A DNA stretch of 64,000 nucleotides from Candidatus Saccharimonadota bacterium (GTDB taxonomy: Bacteria > Patescibacteriota > Saccharimonadia > Saccharimonadales > Saccharimonadaceae). Where the stretch lies: NCBI GenBank assembly GCA_946893605.1, contig OX335598.1, positions 124,001 through 188,000 of the forward strand, read 5' to 3'. A model generated the notes under the pieces. That model ran no database searches, was not told the DNA's origin, and worked only from the letters and a program-made list of their open reading frames with translations. The position numbers and the translations under genes are program-made. Positions 41,764 to 50,504 of the stretch are shown in pieces. Position 1 is the stretch's first letter. Each line of letters begins with the position of its first letter.

Positions 41764-42689
41764 CTATTTTGTATAGAAGTGGTCTATGTATACTGTGTAT
41801 ATTTGAGACCATGCCAGCTCAATCTTATCTAGATCTTCATCTTTATAATGATAATAATTTATTGATGCAATTACAGAAGACCAGATCAATAAGGACGACT
41901 CACAAACATATTTATATCCAAAGATGCTGTCGGGAGTTTTGTTGTGTAGGATAGACAGGTTGATTTTTTTCCTGTCCTCTATAAAATATCCCATGATTTG
42001 GCTGAAATTATTCATATGCACAAATGGGTTACCCAAATTTCTGACCCCCTTATTAATGGTTTTATTTTTTAGTATGATGGCTAAAGAGTCGGGAGCTTTT
42101 TGCTTATGTTCCTTGGCGATTTTTGATAATCTTTTATTTAATTCTGCTTCTTTTGTAAAATTGTTATATAAATCTTCATCTGATATATTTACGTATTTAG
42201 TAAAATTTTCAAAGAATTCCTTATCATAGAGACATAGACAAAGTATTTTACTCTTTTCTATAAAATTACGTGATATTGAATGAAACTGAGGATCAAATCC
42301 TTTGGCTATTAGATTTCTCAGTGTGATTAGATCATGAGTCATGCCTTTTAAAAGTATTATGAAAGATAAGTTTAAATCATAGGATATTTATCATGTCCAA
42401 TAATCAAGTTCTTTTTAAGAAAATTTTCGGATATACAATCATAAAGTATGGTGTAGTTTATAATGCTAATATTCATGAATCCTATAAGTTTCATAATTTC
42501 TTCGTCATATATTGCTGGAGTGTTGTCTGCGAGTAGAGGGCTAAAGTATCTAATTTTCTTAATGTAATAATCTACCAGAGAGCTTTCAATGCCAGAGTCT
42601 TGTAGTATGCCGATAGTCTCCGTAAAGGTGTTTTTATTATTATCTGCCATATATTTTATTATACATGGTAGGTTTGGGGCAGAATGCAA
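41764..42689 (-). CDS. Hypothetical helical protein, probably one gene with a frameshift
   Basis: Two minus-strand frames (42689 down to 42372 and 42342 down to 41764) are most simply one gene of about 309 residues. Adding one base near 42377-42379 joins them as HDKYPYDLNLSFIILLKGMTHDL. The product is helical and rich in Asn, Ile, Lys and Tyr; the second part has the look of HEPN or DUF5677-type helical proteins (RNFIEKSKILCLCL), but that is a weak impression. It is more AT-rich than its neighbours and lies against the local strand direction, which could mean acquired DNA. Confidence 0.5.
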
Positions 42690-42710
42690 GTAAGTGTTAT
42701 AATTATTCTC

Positions 42711-43202
42711 ATGTCAAACGCCATAAACGGACAACTCATCACACACGATTCAGAAGGTGTTATCAAGCGCGATTACCTCTATCGTGTTTCCATAAAGGCT
42801 CTGATTTATAATGATGCTGGGCAGATTTTGGTTGTTAAAGAGGACGGGCGGCCGCTTTGGGATCTTCCTGGCGGCGGAATGGATTATGGCGAGACTTTTG
42901 AGTCGGCTTTGAAGCGGGAATTGTATGAAGAGGTTGGCTATAAGGGCAATCTTCGCTATCAGCTTTTTGACGCGTCGGACGAGATTTATATTGAGCGAAT
43001 TGACGCTAACCAAATTTGTTTTTCTTGTCGTGTGTGGACGGAAAACTTTGATTTTTCAGCGGGCGTCGATGCGGACGAAGTGACGTTTATGGATCCTGAA
43101 GAGTTGCGACTCCAAGAGAGCGAGTCGGGTGCGCCGCTTCGATATAAAGTGCATTTGAAGTGGCAGAAATTGTGTGGCGCAAATAGTTTGCCGACAGAAT
43201 AG
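42711..43202 (+). CDS. NUDIX hydrolase
   Basis: 163 residues from the ATG at 42711. The Nudix box is complete: GGGMDYGETFESALKRELYEEVG, read as GX5EX7REXXEEXG, preceded by DLPGG-type sequence DLPGGG. These enzymes hydrolyse nucleoside diphosphates linked to another group; the substrate cannot be told. TATAAT (42698-42703) lies seven bases upstream of this ATG, and the ATG at 42684 precedes the -10, so the later start is preferred. Confidence 0.92.
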   Translation: MSNAINGQLITHDSEGVIKRDYLYRVSIKALIYNDAGQILVVKEDGRPLWDLPGGGMDYGETFESALKRELYEEVGYKGNLRYQLFDASDEIYIERIDANQICFSCRVWTENFDFSAGVDADEVTFMDPEELRLQESESGAPLRYKVHLKWQKLCGANSLPTE

Positions 43203-43204
43203 TA

Positions 43205-43233
43205 TTGACTTTTTCCATAAAATAGTATAGAAT
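43205..43233 (+). promoter_or_regulatory. Leaderless promoter of the paralogue pair
   Basis: TTGACT (43205-43210), 17 bases, TAGAAT (43228-43233), then seven bases to the ATG at 43241. Confidence 0.65.
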
Positions 43234-43240
43234 ATCAGGC

Positions 43241-43858
43241 ATGGAAAAAAGTACAGGCGGCGTATCTTTTGATATTAGATTTATTGACTCTAGTAATGGC
43301 TCAGAGAATTGTTCCTCTGTCGAAAGTCGGCGCTTGATTGGGATTTATGATGACGATTGGTCTCTAGGAGAAGATGGAGCCGTGAATGCGTCCATGGTGT
43401 TTGCCAGAAGAGTGGGCGATATTCGTAGTCATGGGAATTTGATAGAAAAGGTTCGCGGAATTGGTGAGAACATGGCGCGAGTGTCTATTTCAGAGTGTCT
43501 GGGGATTGAAGATGAGGTGGAGGTGAGCGGCTGGCTAATGGCTGACCCGATGTCGCATAGTGGAATTTCTTTCTTGCGCAAAGTAATACCAACCGAGCTT
43601 GTTGTTCCTGACTCCATTGAAAATAACCCTGACGACGATCAGAAGCTAGAGATCGTTAGACTTGCCTTGCGCGTTGGAGCTGTGGCTTTGCATTGTGCAG
43701 GATTGTCGTTAGAAGAGCTTAAGGAATCTCCTACTGAGAGTTTCTCTCCGGATAAGGTGGATGATCTTGTTTCTCGTTTCCATGGCAATGTGGATTTTGG
43801 TAGCAAGTGGAGAGAGTATAAGAAAATGGCCAAAGATTTAACGTATGAGGAAGACTGA
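43241..43858 (+). CDS. Hypothetical protein, first of a paralogous pair
   Basis: A soluble acidic protein of 205 residues. No known motif was found. Its C-terminal part (RVGAVALHCAGLSLEEL...SFSPDKVDDLV) aligns by eye with the end of the next protein (RVAAVAVGLCLKTPLQEL...EFSAEELAEAW), suggesting an old tandem duplication. The genes overlap by 14 bases and so are co-transcribed. Function unknown. Confidence 0.6.
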   Translation: MEKSTGGVSFDIRFIDSSNGSENCSSVESRRLIGIYDDDWSLGEDGAVNASMVFARRVGDIRSHGNLIEKVRGIGENMARVSISECLGIEDEVEVSGWLMADPMSHSGISFLRKVIPTELVVPDSIENNPDDDQKLEIVRLALRVGAVALHCAGLSLEELKESPTESFSPDKVDDLVSRFHGNVDFGSKWREYKKMAKDLTYEED

Positions 43859-44330
43859 CAATTACGGCGCCATAGTTAAAATCGAGAATATTATGGAGGG
43901 CGAAGTCGACGAGGATTTGTTATTTGCTTTATTGACTAGATTAGTTGTTAAGGACGAGGTTCTCGATATGGATGTAATGTTGGCTAGTCGCTGTCATGAG
44001 TATTCAGGGCATATCATGTTAGCAGAGAAGCGCCTTCCTAGTCGGTCTACGTCCATACAATCGCCATTTCAGTTTCCGTATGGTAAAACTGAGTTGCGAA
44101 GCTGGCGGGATGGGTGGGGTGTACATTCTGTTGGAGGGATAAGAGGAGGATTCAGGAAGAATGCTTATTTTTCTTCAGATAATGCGGAATATCTCATGAG
44201 GCGAGTGGCTGCTGTGGCTGTTGGGCTTTGCTTGAAAACGCCTTTACAAGAGCTGGATTCTGTTAAGGAATTTTCGGCCGAGGAGTTGGCAGAAGCTTGG
44301 CCGAGACTTAGATACGGAATTTACATTTAA
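43845..44330 (+). CDS. Hypothetical protein, second of a paralogous pair
   Basis: 161 residues, soluble. It begins with an Asp/Glu-rich segment, has a Gly-rich middle (SWRDGWGVHSVGGIRGGFRK), and ends in a helical tail similar to that of the preceding protein. The ATG lies inside the preceding gene. No function is assigned. Confidence 0.6.
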   Translation: MRKTDNYGAIVKIENIMEGEVDEDLLFALLTRLVVKDEVLDMDVMLASRCHEYSGHIMLAEKRLPSRSTSIQSPFQFPYGKTELRSWRDGWGVHSVGGIRGGFRKNAYFSSDNAEYLMRRVAAVAVGLCLKTPLQELDSVKEFSAEELAEAWPRLRYGIYI

Positions 44331-44354
44331 TATTGCCATTGTTATAATAACCAT

Positions 44355-45023
44355 ATGCATATTATTCTTGGTGGGACGAGTGGGCTTGGATTAGAAATGG
44401 CGAAGCAACTGCGGGAGCGTGGCGAGCGTGTGCTGGTTCTGGGCAAGACTCATAATCCGCAGAAGCACGGTGAGGGCTTTCCTCTGGATGTGTATTATTC
44501 GGATCAAGTGGAAGCGGCGTCGGCGCGAATCGAGCAGATCTTAAACGGCGATGATATTGATCAATTTGTGTGGGCGGCTGGATATGGCTGGCGCGGCAAT
44601 TTTGAAGATCAGCCGAGTGTTCGCAGTATGGCGGAAGTTAATTTTTCAGGCGCGTTGCCGCTGGTCCAATGGGCTTGGCGTAAGATGTCAACACAAAATC
44701 GTAAGTCTGTACTGACGATTATTGGGTCGACAAGTAGTGTTAAAGCCCGCTCAGATGAAGCTGTGTATGTTGCGACGAAGCACGCTCAAGCGGGTTTGGC
44801 GCGAAGTTTGGGAATGCAGGCGGATGAGCAAAAACTTCCAGTCAGAGTTGCGCTATTTCTTCCAGGTGCTATGAAAACTCCGTTTTGGAACGGTCGAGAA
44901 CTTCCGGCTGACTATATGTTTTTTAATGATCCGGCAAAAATTGCCACGCATATTATTAACGCGATTGATTGTCAACAGCAGCCCTTTTTGGAATGGGCGT
45001 TACCAAAAGGTACGTTGGTTTAG
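44355..45023 (+). CDS. Short-chain dehydrogenase/reductase
   Basis: 222 residues. The nucleotide-binding motif is IILGGTSGLGLEMAKQL, then the central NAG-like WAAGYG, the catalytic Ser in IIGSTSSV and YVATK as the YxxxK pair. It is likely NAD(P)H-dependent; the substrate is not known. TATAAT (44343-44348, preceded by TGT) lies six bases before the ATG, so the mRNA should be leaderless. yvcK follows after 26 bases with its own promoter. Confidence 0.9.
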   Translation: MHIILGGTSGLGLEMAKQLRERGERVLVLGKTHNPQKHGEGFPLDVYYSDQVEAASARIEQILNGDDIDQFVWAAGYGWRGNFEDQPSVRSMAEVNFSGALPLVQWAWRKMSTQNRKSVLTIIGSTSSVKARSDEAVYVATKHAQAGLARSLGMQADEQKLPVRVALFLPGAMKTPFWNGRELPADYMFFNDPAKIATHIINAIDCQQQPFLEWALPKGTLV

Positions 45024-45049
45024 GCTTTCCAAGGTGCTATAATTCAAGC

Positions 45050-46066
45050 ATGATAGATGGTTCGAATAATGATTATTTTGGGGTAAAAGTTGTAGTTATC
45101 GGCGGCGGAACGGGAAGTTTCACGCTGCTTTCTGGATTGAAAAAATATACACACAGCATAACAGCGCTAGTCAATATGGTTGATGACGGCGGCTCAACCG
45201 GTGCGCTTCGCGATGAATTGGGCGTATTGCCAGCAGGAGATGTTAGGCAGTGTTTGGTGGCGTTGAGTAGTTCGCCGAAGGTTCGCGACTTGTTCAATTA
45301 CCGGTTCGGCGAGGGCAGCATGAAAGGTCACGCGTTCGGCAATTTGTTTATGGCGGCGCTAGAAAAGATGACAGGAAGTTTTGCTGATGCAGTTGAGTTG
45401 GCTAGCGAAGTTTTGGGCGTCAATGGTCGAGTTTATCCGATTACTCTGGATGATACGACAATGTCGATTAAGCTGAAAGACGGCACGGTTGTTGATGGTC
45501 AGCACGCGGCTGAGTCGCTAAAGATTCCGCGCGGCGAGCGTCCGTGGCTAGAGCTTAAACCGCCAGCTACGATTAACCCGCGAGCCCGTCAAGCGATTTT
45601 GGATGCCGATTTGGTGGTGATTGCGCCGGGACTTTTGTATGGCAGTTTGGCGCCAGCGTTGTTGGTTCGAGGTGTTACTCGAGCGCTTGCTGAAACGAAG
45701 GCGAAGAAAGTCTATGTTTGCAATTTGGTTACTAAGCCAACGCAGACTGATGGATTTACCGTGGCAGATTTTGCGGATGAAATTGAGCGATTTTCAGGGG
45801 TGAATATGGATTATGTGCTTTACAATAACCATCGCCCGCCAGAGGAATTGATAAAGAAATATGCTCACGACGGCGAATATTTGGTCGAGTGGGATAAGGA
45901 ATTGCTGAAGAAAAAGCATTATTACGCGTCGGGCAAGCGTTTGATTGCTGATGACGTGTGGGTCAATACGAACTCCAACAGCGATCCATTGGCGGCTCAG
46001 CGTAGCTTGATTCGTCACGATGCCGACAGGGTGGCGCGCGAATTGATGCGGATTTATTTTGCGTAG
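45050..46066 (+). CDS. yvcK: YvcK/CofD-like protein (gluconeogenesis factor family)
   Basis: 338 residues. It begins VKVVVIGGGTGSFTLLSGLK and contains MVDDGGSTGALRDELGVLPAGDVRQCLVAL (in parts) and APGLLYGSLAPALLV, typical of YvcK/CofD. In Bacillus, YvcK binds UDP-sugars and affects cell shape and PBP1 localisation; a wall-related role is likely here. The start at 45050 lies six bases behind TGCTATAAT (45038-45043); extension upstream would run into the SDR gene. Confidence 0.9.
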   Translation: MIDGSNNDYFGVKVVVIGGGTGSFTLLSGLKKYTHSITALVNMVDDGGSTGALRDELGVLPAGDVRQCLVALSSSPKVRDLFNYRFGEGSMKGHAFGNLFMAALEKMTGSFADAVELASEVLGVNGRVYPITLDDTTMSIKLKDGTVVDGQHAAESLKIPRGERPWLELKPPATINPRARQAILDADLVVIAPGLLYGSLAPALLVRGVTRALAETKAKKVYVCNLVTKPTQTDGFTVADFADEIERFSGVNMDYVLYNNHRPPEELIKKYAHDGEYLVEWDKELLKKKHYYASGKRLIADDVWVNTNSNSDPLAAQRSLIRHDADRVARELMRIYFA

Positions 46067-46114
46067 ATTCCAGGGCTTGATAATTTCCCATTACTATGAT
46101 ATAATGCAAGGGTT

Positions 46115-47758
46115 GTGTCAAGTGAAAATTGTATTTTGAACGAAAAAGAGATTATACCTGCAGAAGAGGTTTTTCATGAATCATGCCGTAAGGTTTTAGA
46201 CGGCTATATTAGTTGTACTGAAGGTGAGCGCGAAGATTTTAAGGATCATGCTTACCGAGTGTATAAGATCGTAAAAGCATATACGAGTGATGATTTACCG
46301 CCAGAGGCAGCTTCGTTGTCATTGATTCACGACGTTGCTGATAGGATGTTTAATAAAAAGAGCACAAAATATAACGATGTGTGGGCCAGGAATGCCGCAG
46401 ATGCACTTTATGGGTTCATGGATGATGAAAAGATTAGCCATGAGCAGTTGGAGTATTCCGCAAGTTTACTGGCTGATATGGCTAAAATTGAACAAAGTGC
46501 GGCTCATCATCGCAGGCAGATGGCTGAAATTGCTGAAGAAGAGTCTAATGAAGATTATCAAGAAATATACTCCTTGGTTGCTGAGCGACATATGGGCGAG
46601 GTTTCTCCTGAGCAGTGGGCGATTGCTCAGCCACTTCTAGACCTTGATCATATGAGATTAGAGATGGATAAGGTTAATATCGAGGCGTTTATAATAAAAG
46701 GCGCCGAGATAATGGATAATTTGCAACATCCGTCGTCAAAGAGGGAGTCTGCAGTTTTACAGGATGTGTTGGAAGCTGAGTCATTCTATGCTCCAATTCT
46801 TGAGGCGATGGGATATGAGGCTTTTGCTGCAGAACTGCGTAGTGTGGCTAAAGTAAGACGACTAATTGGTCAAGATAAGGAAGACCTTGTTAAAAGTGCT
46901 AAAGAGACACAAGACAGGGTTCTACAGGTCGGCATGGACAAAATTGCAGACAAGATATTTGGTGTGAATGACGGTACTATCAATTACGCTATTCGTAAAG
47001 ATGAGGATTCTGGCGAATATTCTACCTACATGGGGGAATTTGCGGCTGATACCGAATATGGCAATATGGTTGCTGGAAACTGGCGTATTAAAACTGTAGG
47101 ATCGCTTGCGGATAAACTTAAGGGCGGCGACGGAATTATGGATATTGTCGGTATGATGGTGATATCTAGAGATCGTGAAACGACAGCTTGTGATTTTGCG
47201 CATTTTATTGCTGATAGGTTGAAGGAATTTAGGCCGGTGTGCGCTCGAAACAAAAACAAACCTATATATATTCAAGGAACTAAAGAATATGTTGATATCG
47301 TGGAGCAGAATCTTCGTGAATTGGGCGTGAGTTCGGATGAGTATTTGATAAAAATTGATACCGATGAAAAGTGTGAAAAACGAGGATATCCTATTTATGA
47401 AATATCTAAAGTGACGTTCGTTGTGGTTGTTGACGATGTTGAGATCCCGGTTGAAATACAGTTTATTACAAAAGACGAGCGATGCCGTGCGCGTACAGGC
47501 GAAGTATCTCATATTGCTTATAAATACCTACAGTCTCAGGGTTTCGGTAAGGATAATCTAGAGGAAGAGACGACTCGTCAACGTGTTGAGAGAATAAAGA
47601 TAGTCAGTCTTGCAGAAGAGGTCTTAGGCGCGCTATACAAACGGCGCTACGACATGAAAAATAGTAAAAACACTGGTGATCTTGGGCTTAATCCGAAATC
47701 TCTGTCTAATGAAGATAAGTTTATTGAGAGACTGATTGATCTACGGGCTGACAATTAA
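46115..47758 (+). CDS. Divergent RelA/SpoT homologue without C-terminal regulatory domains
   Basis: 547 residues. The N-terminal half looks like a degenerate HD hydrolase domain: DHAYRVYKIV, LSLIHDVADR, and a KGAEIMDNLQH segment where SpoT has KLADRLHNMR. The C-terminal half matches the synthetase: NWRIKTVGSLADKLK, IMDIVGMMVI, KRGYPIYEISKV (G loop) and VEIQFITKDERCRARTGEVSHIAYK (in parts). TGS and ACT domains are absent. The HD Asp appears replaced by Glu, so hydrolase activity is doubtful while synthetase residues seem kept. Start GTG at 46115, nine bases after TGATATAAT. Assignment is by motif. Confidence 0.7.
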   Translation: MSSENCILNEKEIIPAEEVFHESCRKVLDGYISCTEGEREDFKDHAYRVYKIVKAYTSDDLPPEAASLSLIHDVADRMFNKKSTKYNDVWARNAADALYGFMDDEKISHEQLEYSASLLADMAKIEQSAAHHRRQMAEIAEEESNEDYQEIYSLVAERHMGEVSPEQWAIAQPLLDLDHMRLEMDKVNIEAFIIKGAEIMDNLQHPSSKRESAVLQDVLEAESFYAPILEAMGYEAFAAELRSVAKVRRLIGQDKEDLVKSAKETQDRVLQVGMDKIADKIFGVNDGTINYAIRKDEDSGEYSTYMGEFAADTEYGNMVAGNWRIKTVGSLADKLKGGDGIMDIVGMMVISRDRETTACDFAHFIADRLKEFRPVCARNKNKPIYIQGTKEYVDIVEQNLRELGVSSDEYLIKIDTDEKCEKRGYPIYEISKVTFVVVVDDVEIPVEIQFITKDERCRARTGEVSHIAYKYLQSQGFGKDNLEEETTRQRVERIKIVSLAEEVLGALYKRRYDMKNSKNTGDLGLNPKSLSNEDKFIERLIDLRADN

Positions 47759-47785
47759 CAACTTGCGCGTGATATAATCATACTA

Positions 47786-48211
47786 ATGACGACTTACTAT
47801 ACTGATGGCTCTGCTTCGCCAAATCCCGGTCCAGGTGGGTTTGCGGTTATTCGTGATCTTCAGCCTTGTATTTTGGGATCGGAAGATGGCGACACCACCA
47901 ATATTCGCATGGAGGGCAAGGCTTTAATTGCAGCATTGAAAGACGCTAATGGCGCGCCGTGCGTGATTTATTCTGATAGTGAATTTTGGATTAACGTGGT
48001 CACCAAGTGGGCGCCAGGCTGGGAAAAGCGCGGCTGGACGAAAAAAGGCGGCGATATTAAAAATCTGGATATTGTACGCGAATTGTACGAATTATATTCA
48101 AACTCTCAGGCGGATTTGCGTTGGGTGCGTGGCCATGAAGGCGATGAAGGGAATGAACTAGCGGACGAATGGGCTAATCGGGCGCGTGAAGGCGAAAGAT
48201 TGACAAAATAA
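47786..48211 (+). CDS. rnhA: Ribonuclease HI
   Basis: 141 residues. The four acidic catalytic residues are in YTDGSASPNPGPGG, MEGKALIAAL, IYSDSEFWIN and GNELADEWANR, with the His-containing loop WVRGHEGDEG. It removes RNA from RNA-DNA hybrids. TATAAT (47773-47778, preceded by TGA) is seven bases before the ATG. Confidence 0.94.
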   Translation: MTTYYTDGSASPNPGPGGFAVIRDLQPCILGSEDGDTTNIRMEGKALIAALKDANGAPCVIYSDSEFWINVVTKWAPGWEKRGWTKKGGDIKNLDIVRELYELYSNSQADLRWVRGHEGDEGNELADEWANRAREGERLTK

Positions 48212-48250
48212 CTGCTAGCGACATCTTATAAAAATTGCTATACTAGAAAA

Positions 48251-49228
48251 ATGGAAGAAGTGAGGGAAACGACTGATATTTTTTTGTGGGCAAATCAAAA
48301 CGATGCAAAGAAGAATGATTTACAGATAGAGCTGTTCTTATTTAGCAAAAATTACACGCCATATTTTATGCCGATAAAAGGTGATGTTGAGCAGCAGCTT
48401 AGACCGTTGTTCTTGTTTGATTACATCAATCAGGTCAATTTGGGTGCGGGTACTGGATTGAGCGTTCGTGATTATGAATTGAGCGAATCAGAAGATAATG
48501 TTTTATTGAGGACTGACCTGGAAAAGGTTGGGCGAGCTGAAACACTGATTCATTTGATTGAGCATGAACGTCACGACATTGTGGAGTTTTCGGAAACTGA
48601 GCACGAATTCAAGCGCATGAAGGGAATTGTGGCACGATTTACCGATCCAAATAACCCTGACGCGACATTCTATACAGTTAAGCTAATCCAGCAAGGTCAG
48701 ACGCTGAAGAGCGCGTTGGCTTGGGAATTTTCTGATGGCAAATTTGGTTCATTTAATGCGGAAGTTGGTTTTAAGGTTCCGGATGATAATCAAGTTTTGA
48801 TTGTCGGTAAAGATATTTTTGCGTTTAATCCTGGAAAATTTGAGCGAATGTTTGGCTATGAATATAAAAAGCAGGTGATTGCTGATAAAAAAGTAGCGGA
48901 AATTGAGAAGGAATATAAGCTAAGTTTTCCAGAGGGAATGGATCTTAATGCGCTAGTGAAGGAGCGAAAAAAGACGATTAATAAATTGCAGAAATTGGAA
49001 ATCGGCGCGGTTAAGCAGGAAGATGTTTTGGACTATGCTGATGAGATGCAGTTGGAATTGATGAGCGATGATAACGGCGCGATTATTATCATGGACGGCA
49101 ATGATTTGGATATGTTCGTAAATCTCATCAACGAGGATTATATCGAGAGTAAAATCACGGGCAAGCGTTACGAAATTAAGTCGAAGAAGCTGCTCGGCGA
49201 GCCAGAAGGCGAACCGCCACGAGGCTAA
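48251..49228 (+). CDS. DUF4868/KwaB-like protein
   Basis: 325 residues, soluble. The central to C-terminal part (about 180-260) has IFAFNPGKFERMFGYEYKKQ, then a helical IEKEYKLSFPEG segment and LVKERKKTINKLQKLEIG, an order that resembles DUF4868, the domain of KwaB in the Kiwa anti-phage system. No KwaA-like membrane protein is adjacent. TGCTATACT lies six bases before the ATG (leaderless). One base separates it from the PIF1-like helicase gene. The family call is from memory and moderately sure. Confidence 0.5.
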   Translation: MEEVRETTDIFLWANQNDAKKNDLQIELFLFSKNYTPYFMPIKGDVEQQLRPLFLFDYINQVNLGAGTGLSVRDYELSESEDNVLLRTDLEKVGRAETLIHLIEHERHDIVEFSETEHEFKRMKGIVARFTDPNNPDATFYTVKLIQQGQTLKSALAWEFSDGKFGSFNAEVGFKVPDDNQVLIVGKDIFAFNPGKFERMFGYEYKKQVIADKKVAEIEKEYKLSFPEGMDLNALVKERKKTINKLQKLEIGAVKQEDVLDYADEMQLELMSDDNGAIIIMDGNDLDMFVNLINEDYIESKITGKRYEIKSKKLLGEPEGEPPRG

Positions 49229-49229
49229 A

Positions 49230-50504
49230 ATGGATCAAGAATTAGCGCTAGCTATTCTACTGAGCGGTCGGTCGGCGTTGCTGACTGGTGCGGCTGGAAC
49301 GGGTAAGACTCACCTGTTGAATACTTTTATTGCGCAGGCGCGAAAACGCGGTAAAAAGGTGTCGGTAACAGCGACAACTGGTCTGGCGGCGACGCATCTT
49401 GGCGGCAATACAATTCACAGCTGGAGTGGTATTGGCGTAAGTGATCATTTGCCGAACAATTTTTTTGAACGATTGTCAAAAACGCGGCGTGATGTGATTT
49501 CTAAAGCTGACGTGCTGATCATTGATGAGATTTCGATGCTTCACGATTTTCGGCTGGATATGATTGATAAAGTTTTACGAACCGTCAGGGAAAATGATCA
49601 GCCGTTTGGTGGTATTCAGTTGGTGATGAGTGGCGATTTTTTCCAATTGCCGCCAGTGAACCGTCCGAACGAGCAGGGCGGCGGATTTGTGGTTTATTCT
49701 GATGCTTGGCAAGAACTTCAGCCGGCGGTTTTATATTTGGAGCGACAATATCGTCAGAATGATGAGCAGCTTTTGGAGATTCTGACCGCTCTAAGAACTG
49801 GCGATGTTAGGCGACGTCACGTCGAGGCGTTGCTGGCGCGTACGGAAATTGAGCCGCCAGATGGTGATATCACAGAACTGCACACCGTAAACGTCGATGT
49901 TGATGATATCAATATTCAAAAATTGGCGGAATTGCCAGGGGAAGAACGTTCGTATCAACAAACGACGACTGGCTCGAAAATTTATGTAGAGAATCTGCAA
50001 AGGTCAGTTTTGGCTCCAGAAAATTTGGTGATTAAGCTGGGCGCGTTGGTGATGGCGGTTAAAAATTCGCCGCAAAAATTATATGCCAATGGAAGTATCG
50101 GCACGGTAGTTGATTTCGAGCCGCTGACGGAATATCCGGTTGTTAAGTTTCGAGATGGTCGTCGGGTGACGATGGTACCGGATATTTGGGAGTTGCGAGA
50201 CGGAGAGCGCAAACGAGCGAGTATTTCTCAGGTTCCGCTGCGTTTGGCGTGGGCGATAACGGTTCACAAAAGCCAGGGAATGACGCTGGATGCGGCTAAG
50301 ATTGATCTGAGGAAGGCGTTTGTTGAAGGTATGGGTTATGTGGCTTTGAGCCGCGTGCGAGATTTGGACAATTTATATCTATATGGAATTAACCGTAGAG
50401 CGCTGGAAGTTTCTCCTGATGCGCTGGCGATTGATGAGGTTTTGAGGCGGGCAAGTAGAGAGTCTGCTGAGAGATATAGAGGTACAGCCTTTAGATCTCA
50501 TTAG
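49230..50504 (+). CDS. PIF1/RecD2-like SF1 helicase
   Basis: 424 residues. Motif I is LLTGAAGTGKTHLLN, then ATTGLAATHLGGNTIHSW (motif Ia region typical of PIF1), motif II VLIIDEISML, motif III QLVMSGDFFQLPPV, motif IV-type YLERQYRQ and motifs V-VI WAITVHKSQGMTLD and GYVALSRVRDLDNLYL. PIF1 helicases unwind DNA 5' to 3' and process G-quadruplexes and stalled forks. It is translated right after the DUF4868-like gene, which suggests a shared function. Confidence 0.9.
   Translation: MDQELALAILLSGRSALLTGAAGTGKTHLLNTFIAQARKRGKKVSVTATTGLAATHLGGNTIHSWSGIGVSDHLPNNFFERLSKTRRDVISKADVLIIDEISMLHDFRLDMIDKVLRTVRENDQPFGGIQLVMSGDFFQLPPVNRPNEQGGGFVVYSDAWQELQPAVLYLERQYRQNDEQLLEILTALRTGDVRRRHVEALLARTEIEPPDGDITELHTVNVDVDDINIQKLAELPGEERSYQQTTTGSKIYVENLQRSVLAPENLVIKLGALVMAVKNSPQKLYANGSIGTVVDFEPLTEYPVVKFRDGRRVTMVPDIWELRDGERKRASISQVPLRLAWAITVHKSQGMTLDAAKIDLRKAFVEGMGYVALSRVRDLDNLYLYGINRRALEVSPDALAIDEVLRRASRESAERYRGTAFRSH

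Follow-up and report, generated by a model that had tools for sequence, protein, structure and literature searches.

RelA/SpoT homologues (RSH enzymes), which synthesize and degrade the starvation signal (p)ppGpp, are usually treated as conserved controllers of starvation. The long forms (Rel, SpoT and RelA) carry an HD domain, C3HB linker helices and a synthetase (SYN) domain in that order, followed by TGS, helical, ZFD and ACT/RRM regions, of which TGS and ACT/RRM characterize the bifunctional Rel/SpoT class; the small alarmone synthetases (RelQ, RelP) and the toxSAS proteins have SYN alone, and the small alarmone hydrolases (SAH/MESH1) have the HD fold. The HDxxED motif is absent from hydrolase-dead RelA (PMC8012599, PMC8801413), whose inactive HD domain regulates synthesis (PMC8012599). 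In the synthetase site, Mg2+ is bound by the carboxylates of D264 and E323, the adenine is held between R241 and R269, and the guanine has Y308 stacked on it (PMC7983052); further residues of the binding site as published are K297, Y299, K304, N306, H312 and R327 (PMC8801413).

The window analyzed here is a stretch of 64,000 nucleotides, bases 124001–188000 of the single 701,908-base contig of a 702-kb Saccharibacteria genome. Its source is most likely an oral Saccharibacterium, a tiny parasitic bacterium of the mouth, and the Saccharibacteria are host-dependent epibionts. Little is understood of how these obligate epibionts control their growth and interact with their hosts, and an RSH branch that kept phosphate-transfer chemistry without the GDP/GTP pocket or ribosome sensing, with the turnover of a conflict gene, would extend the roles of the RSH fold; genetic tools are available for Nanosynbacter (PMC10633639), which makes this testable. 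The open reading frame at 46115–47758 (+), at the same coordinates as in the original prediction, encodes 547 amino acids from a GTG start to a stop at 47756–47758, and its neighbors are YvcK-like and RNase HI-like genes. The features referred to below are as follows, in window positions.

46077–46105, +: promoter-like site, TTGATA-17-TATAAT with TG before the -10 (extended -10), near-consensus with 11 of 12 matches, ending 9 nt 5′ of the GTG
46115–47758, +: ORF for a divergent HD-synthetase RSH-like protein without TGS/ACT (ORF call, Pfam, profile, fold)
46160–46672, +: HD-fold (hydrolase-like) N-terminal domain, residues about 16–186 (model, fold search)
46247–46249, +: H45, at the RelSeq H53 position (alignment)
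46328–46345, +: HDVADR, residues 72–77, with the ED dyad of canonical HDxxED changed to DR
46673–46870, +: linker helices (C3HB-like), residues 187–252, with an EAESFYAP motif
46706–46720, +: E198-I-M-D-N202, counterpart of D-R-L-H-N (D144, N148), Asp changed to Glu and Asn kept (hhalign)
46871–47539, +: synthetase (SYN) fold, residues 253–475 (model; small alarmone synthetases at Z 9–10.6)
47084–47116, +: R324-x-K326-x-x-x-S330-x-x-x-K334, RelSeq R241, K243, S247 and K251 (alignment)
47141–47143, +: D343, the Mg2+ Asp (RelSeq D264), invariant in 29 members (alignment)
47156–47158, +: M348, at the position of the adenine-sandwich R269 (alignment; R269 role from PMC7983052)
47231–47395, +: family-specific insert of about 55 residues (373–427) with invariant G388, replacing the RxKD...KPN loop
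47396–47410, +: Y428-E-I-S-K432 against Y308-Q-S-I-H312, the Tyr variable in the family and the His changed to an invariant Lys
47453–47461, +: E447-I-Q449 (Mg2+ Glu E323, and Q325), invariant in 29 (alignment)
47510–47512, +: H466, invariant in 29 (alignment)
47540–47755, +: helical C-terminal tail, residues 476–547, replacing TGS/helical/ZFD/ACT (Pfam, model)

The original prediction identified the product as a RelA/SpoT homologue, and profile matches and fold bear this out. The Pfam RelA_SpoT model (PF04607) matches residues 324–471 with 17.5 bits (E 0.0053), below its cut-off of 27, although that cut-off is a detection threshold rather than a biological criterion, and homology rests on the family profile and the fold. 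Homologues were gathered from relatives, from the class and from the wider phylum; a profile of twelve of them matches solved Rel structures (7oiw at 3.3e-8, the best, and 1vj7 at 1.4e-6) collinearly over both domains, and profile-profile comparison (hhalign) with the Saccharibacterial canonical RSH is also collinear, with 95.7% probability and E 1e-8. An AlphaFold2 model built on a 29-row alignment (pLDDT 86.6, pTM 0.88) aligns by VIA-align with both domains of the B. subtilis Rel catalytic region at Z 18.6 (309 residues, rmsd 4.3), and with T. thermophilus Rel at Z 16.8 (303 residues, rmsd 3.5). Its N-terminal part (13–255) matches small alarmone hydrolases, with 7p1y at Z 13.1 (168 residues, rmsd 3.1), and its C-terminal part matches small alarmone synthetases at a best Z of 10.6 (169 residues, rmsd 3.7); a search of a viral structure library with the model gave nothing at E ≤ 0.001. 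Membership of the RSH superfamily is thus supported by fold and by catalytic residues.

Both the bifunctional Rel/SpoT class and the small synthetase class fail on domain content. TGS and ACT are absent, as predicted: Pfam reports no TGS, ACT or zinc-finger domain in the 547 residues, the model ends in two helices, and only this helical tail stands where TGS and ACT/RRM would be, while SYN does not stand alone, residues 16–186 forming the HD-fold domain. The protein resembles the long RSH enzymes in HD-C3HB-SYN order and fold (Z 15–18.6) and in its equivalents of RxKxxxSxxxK, Asp264, Glu323 and Gln325, but it is only about 12–17% identical to them in structural alignments, has none of the TGS, helical, ZFD or ACT/RRM region, reads HDxxDR for HDxxED with Glu for Asp144, and has R269, H312, R327 and the RxKD loop replaced, with the insert of about 55 residues. 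E. coli RelA is likewise a synthetase with a non-canonical (pseudo-HD) domain and a possible switch (PMC8012599), but it has a full ribosome-sensing C-terminus, whereas here an H/HD/E/N metal-ligand set is conserved in half of the family. RelQ, RelP and toxSAS/CapRel share the SYN fold (Z 7.8–10.6) and the absence of ribosome-sensing domains, but this protein adds an N-terminal HD-fold domain and lacks pocket residues that the GTP- and tRNA-using members keep; and unlike SAH/MESH1, its HDxxED is not intact and its HD fold is fused to a synthetase. A limited literature search found no paper on this RSH branch, which we take to be real, altered and apparently active.

The predicted synthetase landmarks (RxKxxxS...K and others) are present to a greater extent than expected by chance, and the catalytic residues survive alignment. 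Although the 29 aligned members are only about 20–40% identical, R324, K326, D343, G388, K432, E447, Q449 and H466 are invariant among them and K334 is present in 27; R324, K326, K334, D343, E447 and Q449 align with RelSeq R241, K243, K251, D264, E323 and Q325 respectively. The residues of the acceptor pocket are another matter. The R269 position is never Arg in the 29 and is Thr in 22, the H312 position is Lys in every member, no row has an Arg at the R327 position, and the Y308 position is variable (Y 14, F 7, M 4, L 3, H 1). A GYxxY-type G loop had been predicted, and the motif is there, but within GYPIY it is Y428, the second Tyr and not the first, that aligns with Tyr308, and K432 takes the place of His312. 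In the set by which a (p)ppGpp synthetase recognizes its substrates (R269, K297, K304, N306, Y308, H312, R327), then, R269, H312 and R327 are absent, the loop is replaced and Y308 varies; as a control, RelQ, which acts on GTP, and CapRel, which acts on tRNA, keep the counterparts of R269, Y308, H312 and R327. Because these defining pocket residues are absent, membership among (p)ppGpp synthetases appears doubtful, and with the GDP/GTP-recognition residues replaced, (p)ppGpp is not to be assumed as the product. Since R269 and a GYKSxH loop survive in two distant relatives (L025 and L053), the pocket would seem to have been altered within the family proper. We infer from the sequences that pyrophosphate transfer has been retained and the acceptor pocket changed; the product may differ from (p)ppGpp, given the altered target-nucleotide residues and the unusually fast exchange of the gene between species.

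The HD region was predicted to be degenerate, and while it is indeed non-canonical, it does not appear to have decayed. Alignment by hhalign pairs AEIMDN with ADRLHN of the Saccharibacterial canonical RSH, and in place of the canonical hydrolase set (H, HDxxED, D, N) the protein has H45, H72-D73, E198 (for D) and N202, with DR for the ED dyad; the Glu and the altered dyad are its sole departures from that set. H72-D73, E198 and N202 are kept as a set in 14 of the 29 members, including the product of ORF 46115–47758, and in none of the other 15, although the HDxxED dyad has turned into xR; retention of E and N together with HD (14/14 against 0/15) gives a Fisher p of 1.3e-8, uncorrected for kinship. 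The HD state switches five times on the tree and E/N follows every time, as in the sister pairs L020/L037 and L041/L042, but only two independent HD-state pairs lie on well-supported branches, and a kinship-corrected test is without power. Because HD, E and N are kept or lost together, we regard the HD site as a conserved variant and not as the result of random decay. The HD fold persists in L044, a member without these residues (7p1y, Z 11.7), and HD loss showed no correlation with the presence of a canonical RSH.

The promoter-like site upstream of the GTG, together with TATAAT-type boxes at a similar distance from the start in three homologues (L020, L022, L023), makes it probable that the gene has its own promoter with little or no leader (near-leaderless). 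An Rfam scan of 42000–50000 found no element. As a separate observation, 17 of the window's 65 main ORFs have an exact TATAAT 4–13 nt 5′ of a start codon (several starts being allowed per ORF), compared to 0.8% for the same placement among all start-like codons, an excess which suggests that leaderless transcripts are common there.

Members of the family occur patchily and almost only in Saccharibacteria; their genes are mosaic and have been exchanged between genera. Of 393 genomes sampled from the class, about 27 have a clear member, and there is a single weak match outside the class among the sampled phylum. Among named records with the gene, TM7 oral taxon 352 is the closest at 90% identity, the other named relatives all being Saccharibacteria/TM7, and in the 90%-identical relative the ORF is intact with an identical start. 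The protein is 30–39% identical to those of congeners (90% in the sister species), whereas in the same congeners YvcK, RNase HI and two downstream proteins are 77–90% identical, and for the canonical RSH the identity among these species is 77–85%, rising to 98.6% with the sister. The G001 allele is 28–31% identical to those of most congeners, 53% to that of G004 and 37% to that of G252, a genome of another genus, and the G001 and G004 alleles group with G252 on the tree with support of 100/100. Identity along the gene to the 90%-identical relative varies from 79 to 98%; nucleotide identity to the sister is about 80% at 46400–46700, 85–91% at 47150–47750, and 97% between and before. The overall dN/dS against the sister species is 0.14, indicating purifying selection. 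Natural transformation in Saccharibacteria is a route for such exchange (PMC10633639).

In distant genera the gene adjoins tmk and rplJ-rplL, lies inside the S10 operon, or is near dnaK (the tmk, rplJ-rplL and S10 neighbors being named from recognizable protein starts, not from a database). Co-regulation with ribosomal genes, as a link to growth control, was considered and rejected, since in genomes without the gene these positions are occupied by unrelated genes, and the yvcK slot shows the same pattern; we therefore read these locations as variable cargo slots. Searches of PHROGs, PADLOC, and phage, plasmid and viral-contig sequences gave no relatives of the protein, and no secretion signal, antitoxin or defence neighbor was identified for ORF 46115–47758. 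We also note that at L139, L140, L143, L153, L155 and L156 the slots after yvcK and between tmk and rplJ carry differing cargo (HAD-like phosphatases, unknown proteins), these slots being accessory-gene hotspots amid housekeeping genes.

It had been argued that a synthetase without ribosome-sensing domains and with a doubtful hydrolase would need another off-switch. The same genome has one canonical RSH (L001) whose HD hydrolase and synthetase motifs are complete, so an enzyme that removes (p)ppGpp should exist, and with it an off-switch if (p)ppGpp is the product; no separate small HD_4-family hydrolase was found in the genome. Among the 26 genomes that carry family members or distant relatives and were searched, an HD_4 domain scores above cut-off in 18 and is absent from eight, which may be incomplete. 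In a published comparison, most other Saccharibacteria genomes are stated to have genes for (p)ppGpp synthesis (PMC6031116).

We favor, at roughly even odds (a probability of about 0.5), an accessory enzyme special to Saccharibacteria, derived from RSH and evolving fast, that transfers pyrophosphate to an altered acceptor. The SYN site would move the β-γ pyrophosphate of ATP to a 3′-hydroxyl, given the invariant R324, K326, D343 and E447 and the near-invariant K334, and with the pocket remodeled the acceptor would probably be something other than plain GDP or GTP, most likely another nucleotide or an RNA 3′ end. The HD domain, with its variant metal-ligand set, would most likely be an allosteric partner, or perhaps a hydrolase of the same product; without TGS/ACT the usual ribosome control would be missing, and the HD domain, the insert, the helical tail or a partner would have to provide it instead. 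The gene is accessory cargo that diversifies rapidly and recombines, and it probably has a promoter of its own; a role in conflict (with phage or host bacterium) or in niche-specific stress would fit this better than the core stringent response. Host-starvation sensing, which had also been proposed, found no support. A fuller version, in which a Saccharibacteria-specific RSH branch pyrophosphorylates a non-GDP/GTP acceptor, has a partner HD domain whose altered chemistry serves that product, and diversifies by swapping alleles in phage or host conflict, we put forward only tentatively. Counting against the favored reading, K432, R456 or the insert could compensate for the pocket changes and still allow (p)ppGpp to be made, and the eight genomes without an HD_4 hydrolase would also suit a plain alarmone enzyme.

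Such a plain enzyme, an ordinary ribosome-independent (p)ppGpp synthetase whose HD domain is altered or regulatory and which serves as a second alarmone source beside the canonical RSH, seems to us rather doubtful. It would account for an RSH fold that spans both domains, for the retained Mg2+ and ATP-phosphate residues and for Y428 at the stacking position in this product, and the canonical RSH of the genome, with its intact HDxxED, could remove what was made, such a hydrolase being present in 18 of the 26 genomes; but it leaves unexplained the loss from every member of R269, H312, R327 and the RxKD/KPN loop, which RelQ and even CapRel keep, as well as an allelic turnover that is unusual for a core stress enzyme when the canonical RSH is so much better conserved across the same species.

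A more specific form of our favored reading, a conflict-type, growth-arresting pyrophosphokinase directed at phage, a competitor or the host bacterium, acting for example on tRNA 3′ ends and checked by its own HD domain, is unlikely as it stands. Patchy, swapped and mosaic alleles in cargo slots would fit it, and toxSAS proteins that pyrophosphorylate tRNA provide a precedent (PMC11559606), but there is no PADLOC match, no phage, plasmid or viral homologue and no obvious antitoxin gene, the two-domain long form is unlike known toxSAS, and CapRel keeps pocket residues that this family has lost. It is very improbable that the protein has lost catalysis and persists as an RSH relic or a nucleotide-binding regulator: many substrate residues are replaced and half of the family has lost the HD site, but eight residues, five of them known RSH catalytic-site residues, are invariant in 29 very divergent members, the ORFs are intact, and the dN/dS is low.

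Other RSH proteins encountered among the Saccharibacteria show departures of their own. In the canonical RSH of this genome (L001:565–2302; C1 near 413181) several small indels, clustered together, put the TGS part out of frame when compared with the 98.6%-identical sister-species copy, reflecting either a sequencing error or a real break. The canonical RSHs L057–L065, of the same genus and family, have AASFHY where other RSHs read AAHWxYK. Related proteins of 724–764 aa (L025:6972–9266, L053:265–2544 and L055) have a degenerate N-terminal HD, a synthetase and then a C-terminal H...HDxxED, with a D..N motif also in the C-terminal region of L025 and L053, and this region appears to be a relocated hydrolase domain. 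Finally, a Saccharibacterium of the same genus (G008) encodes a CapRel-like protein (L067:1288–2358) that matches Salmonella CapRel with an E of 3.5e-40 and is PDC-S33 in PADLOC.
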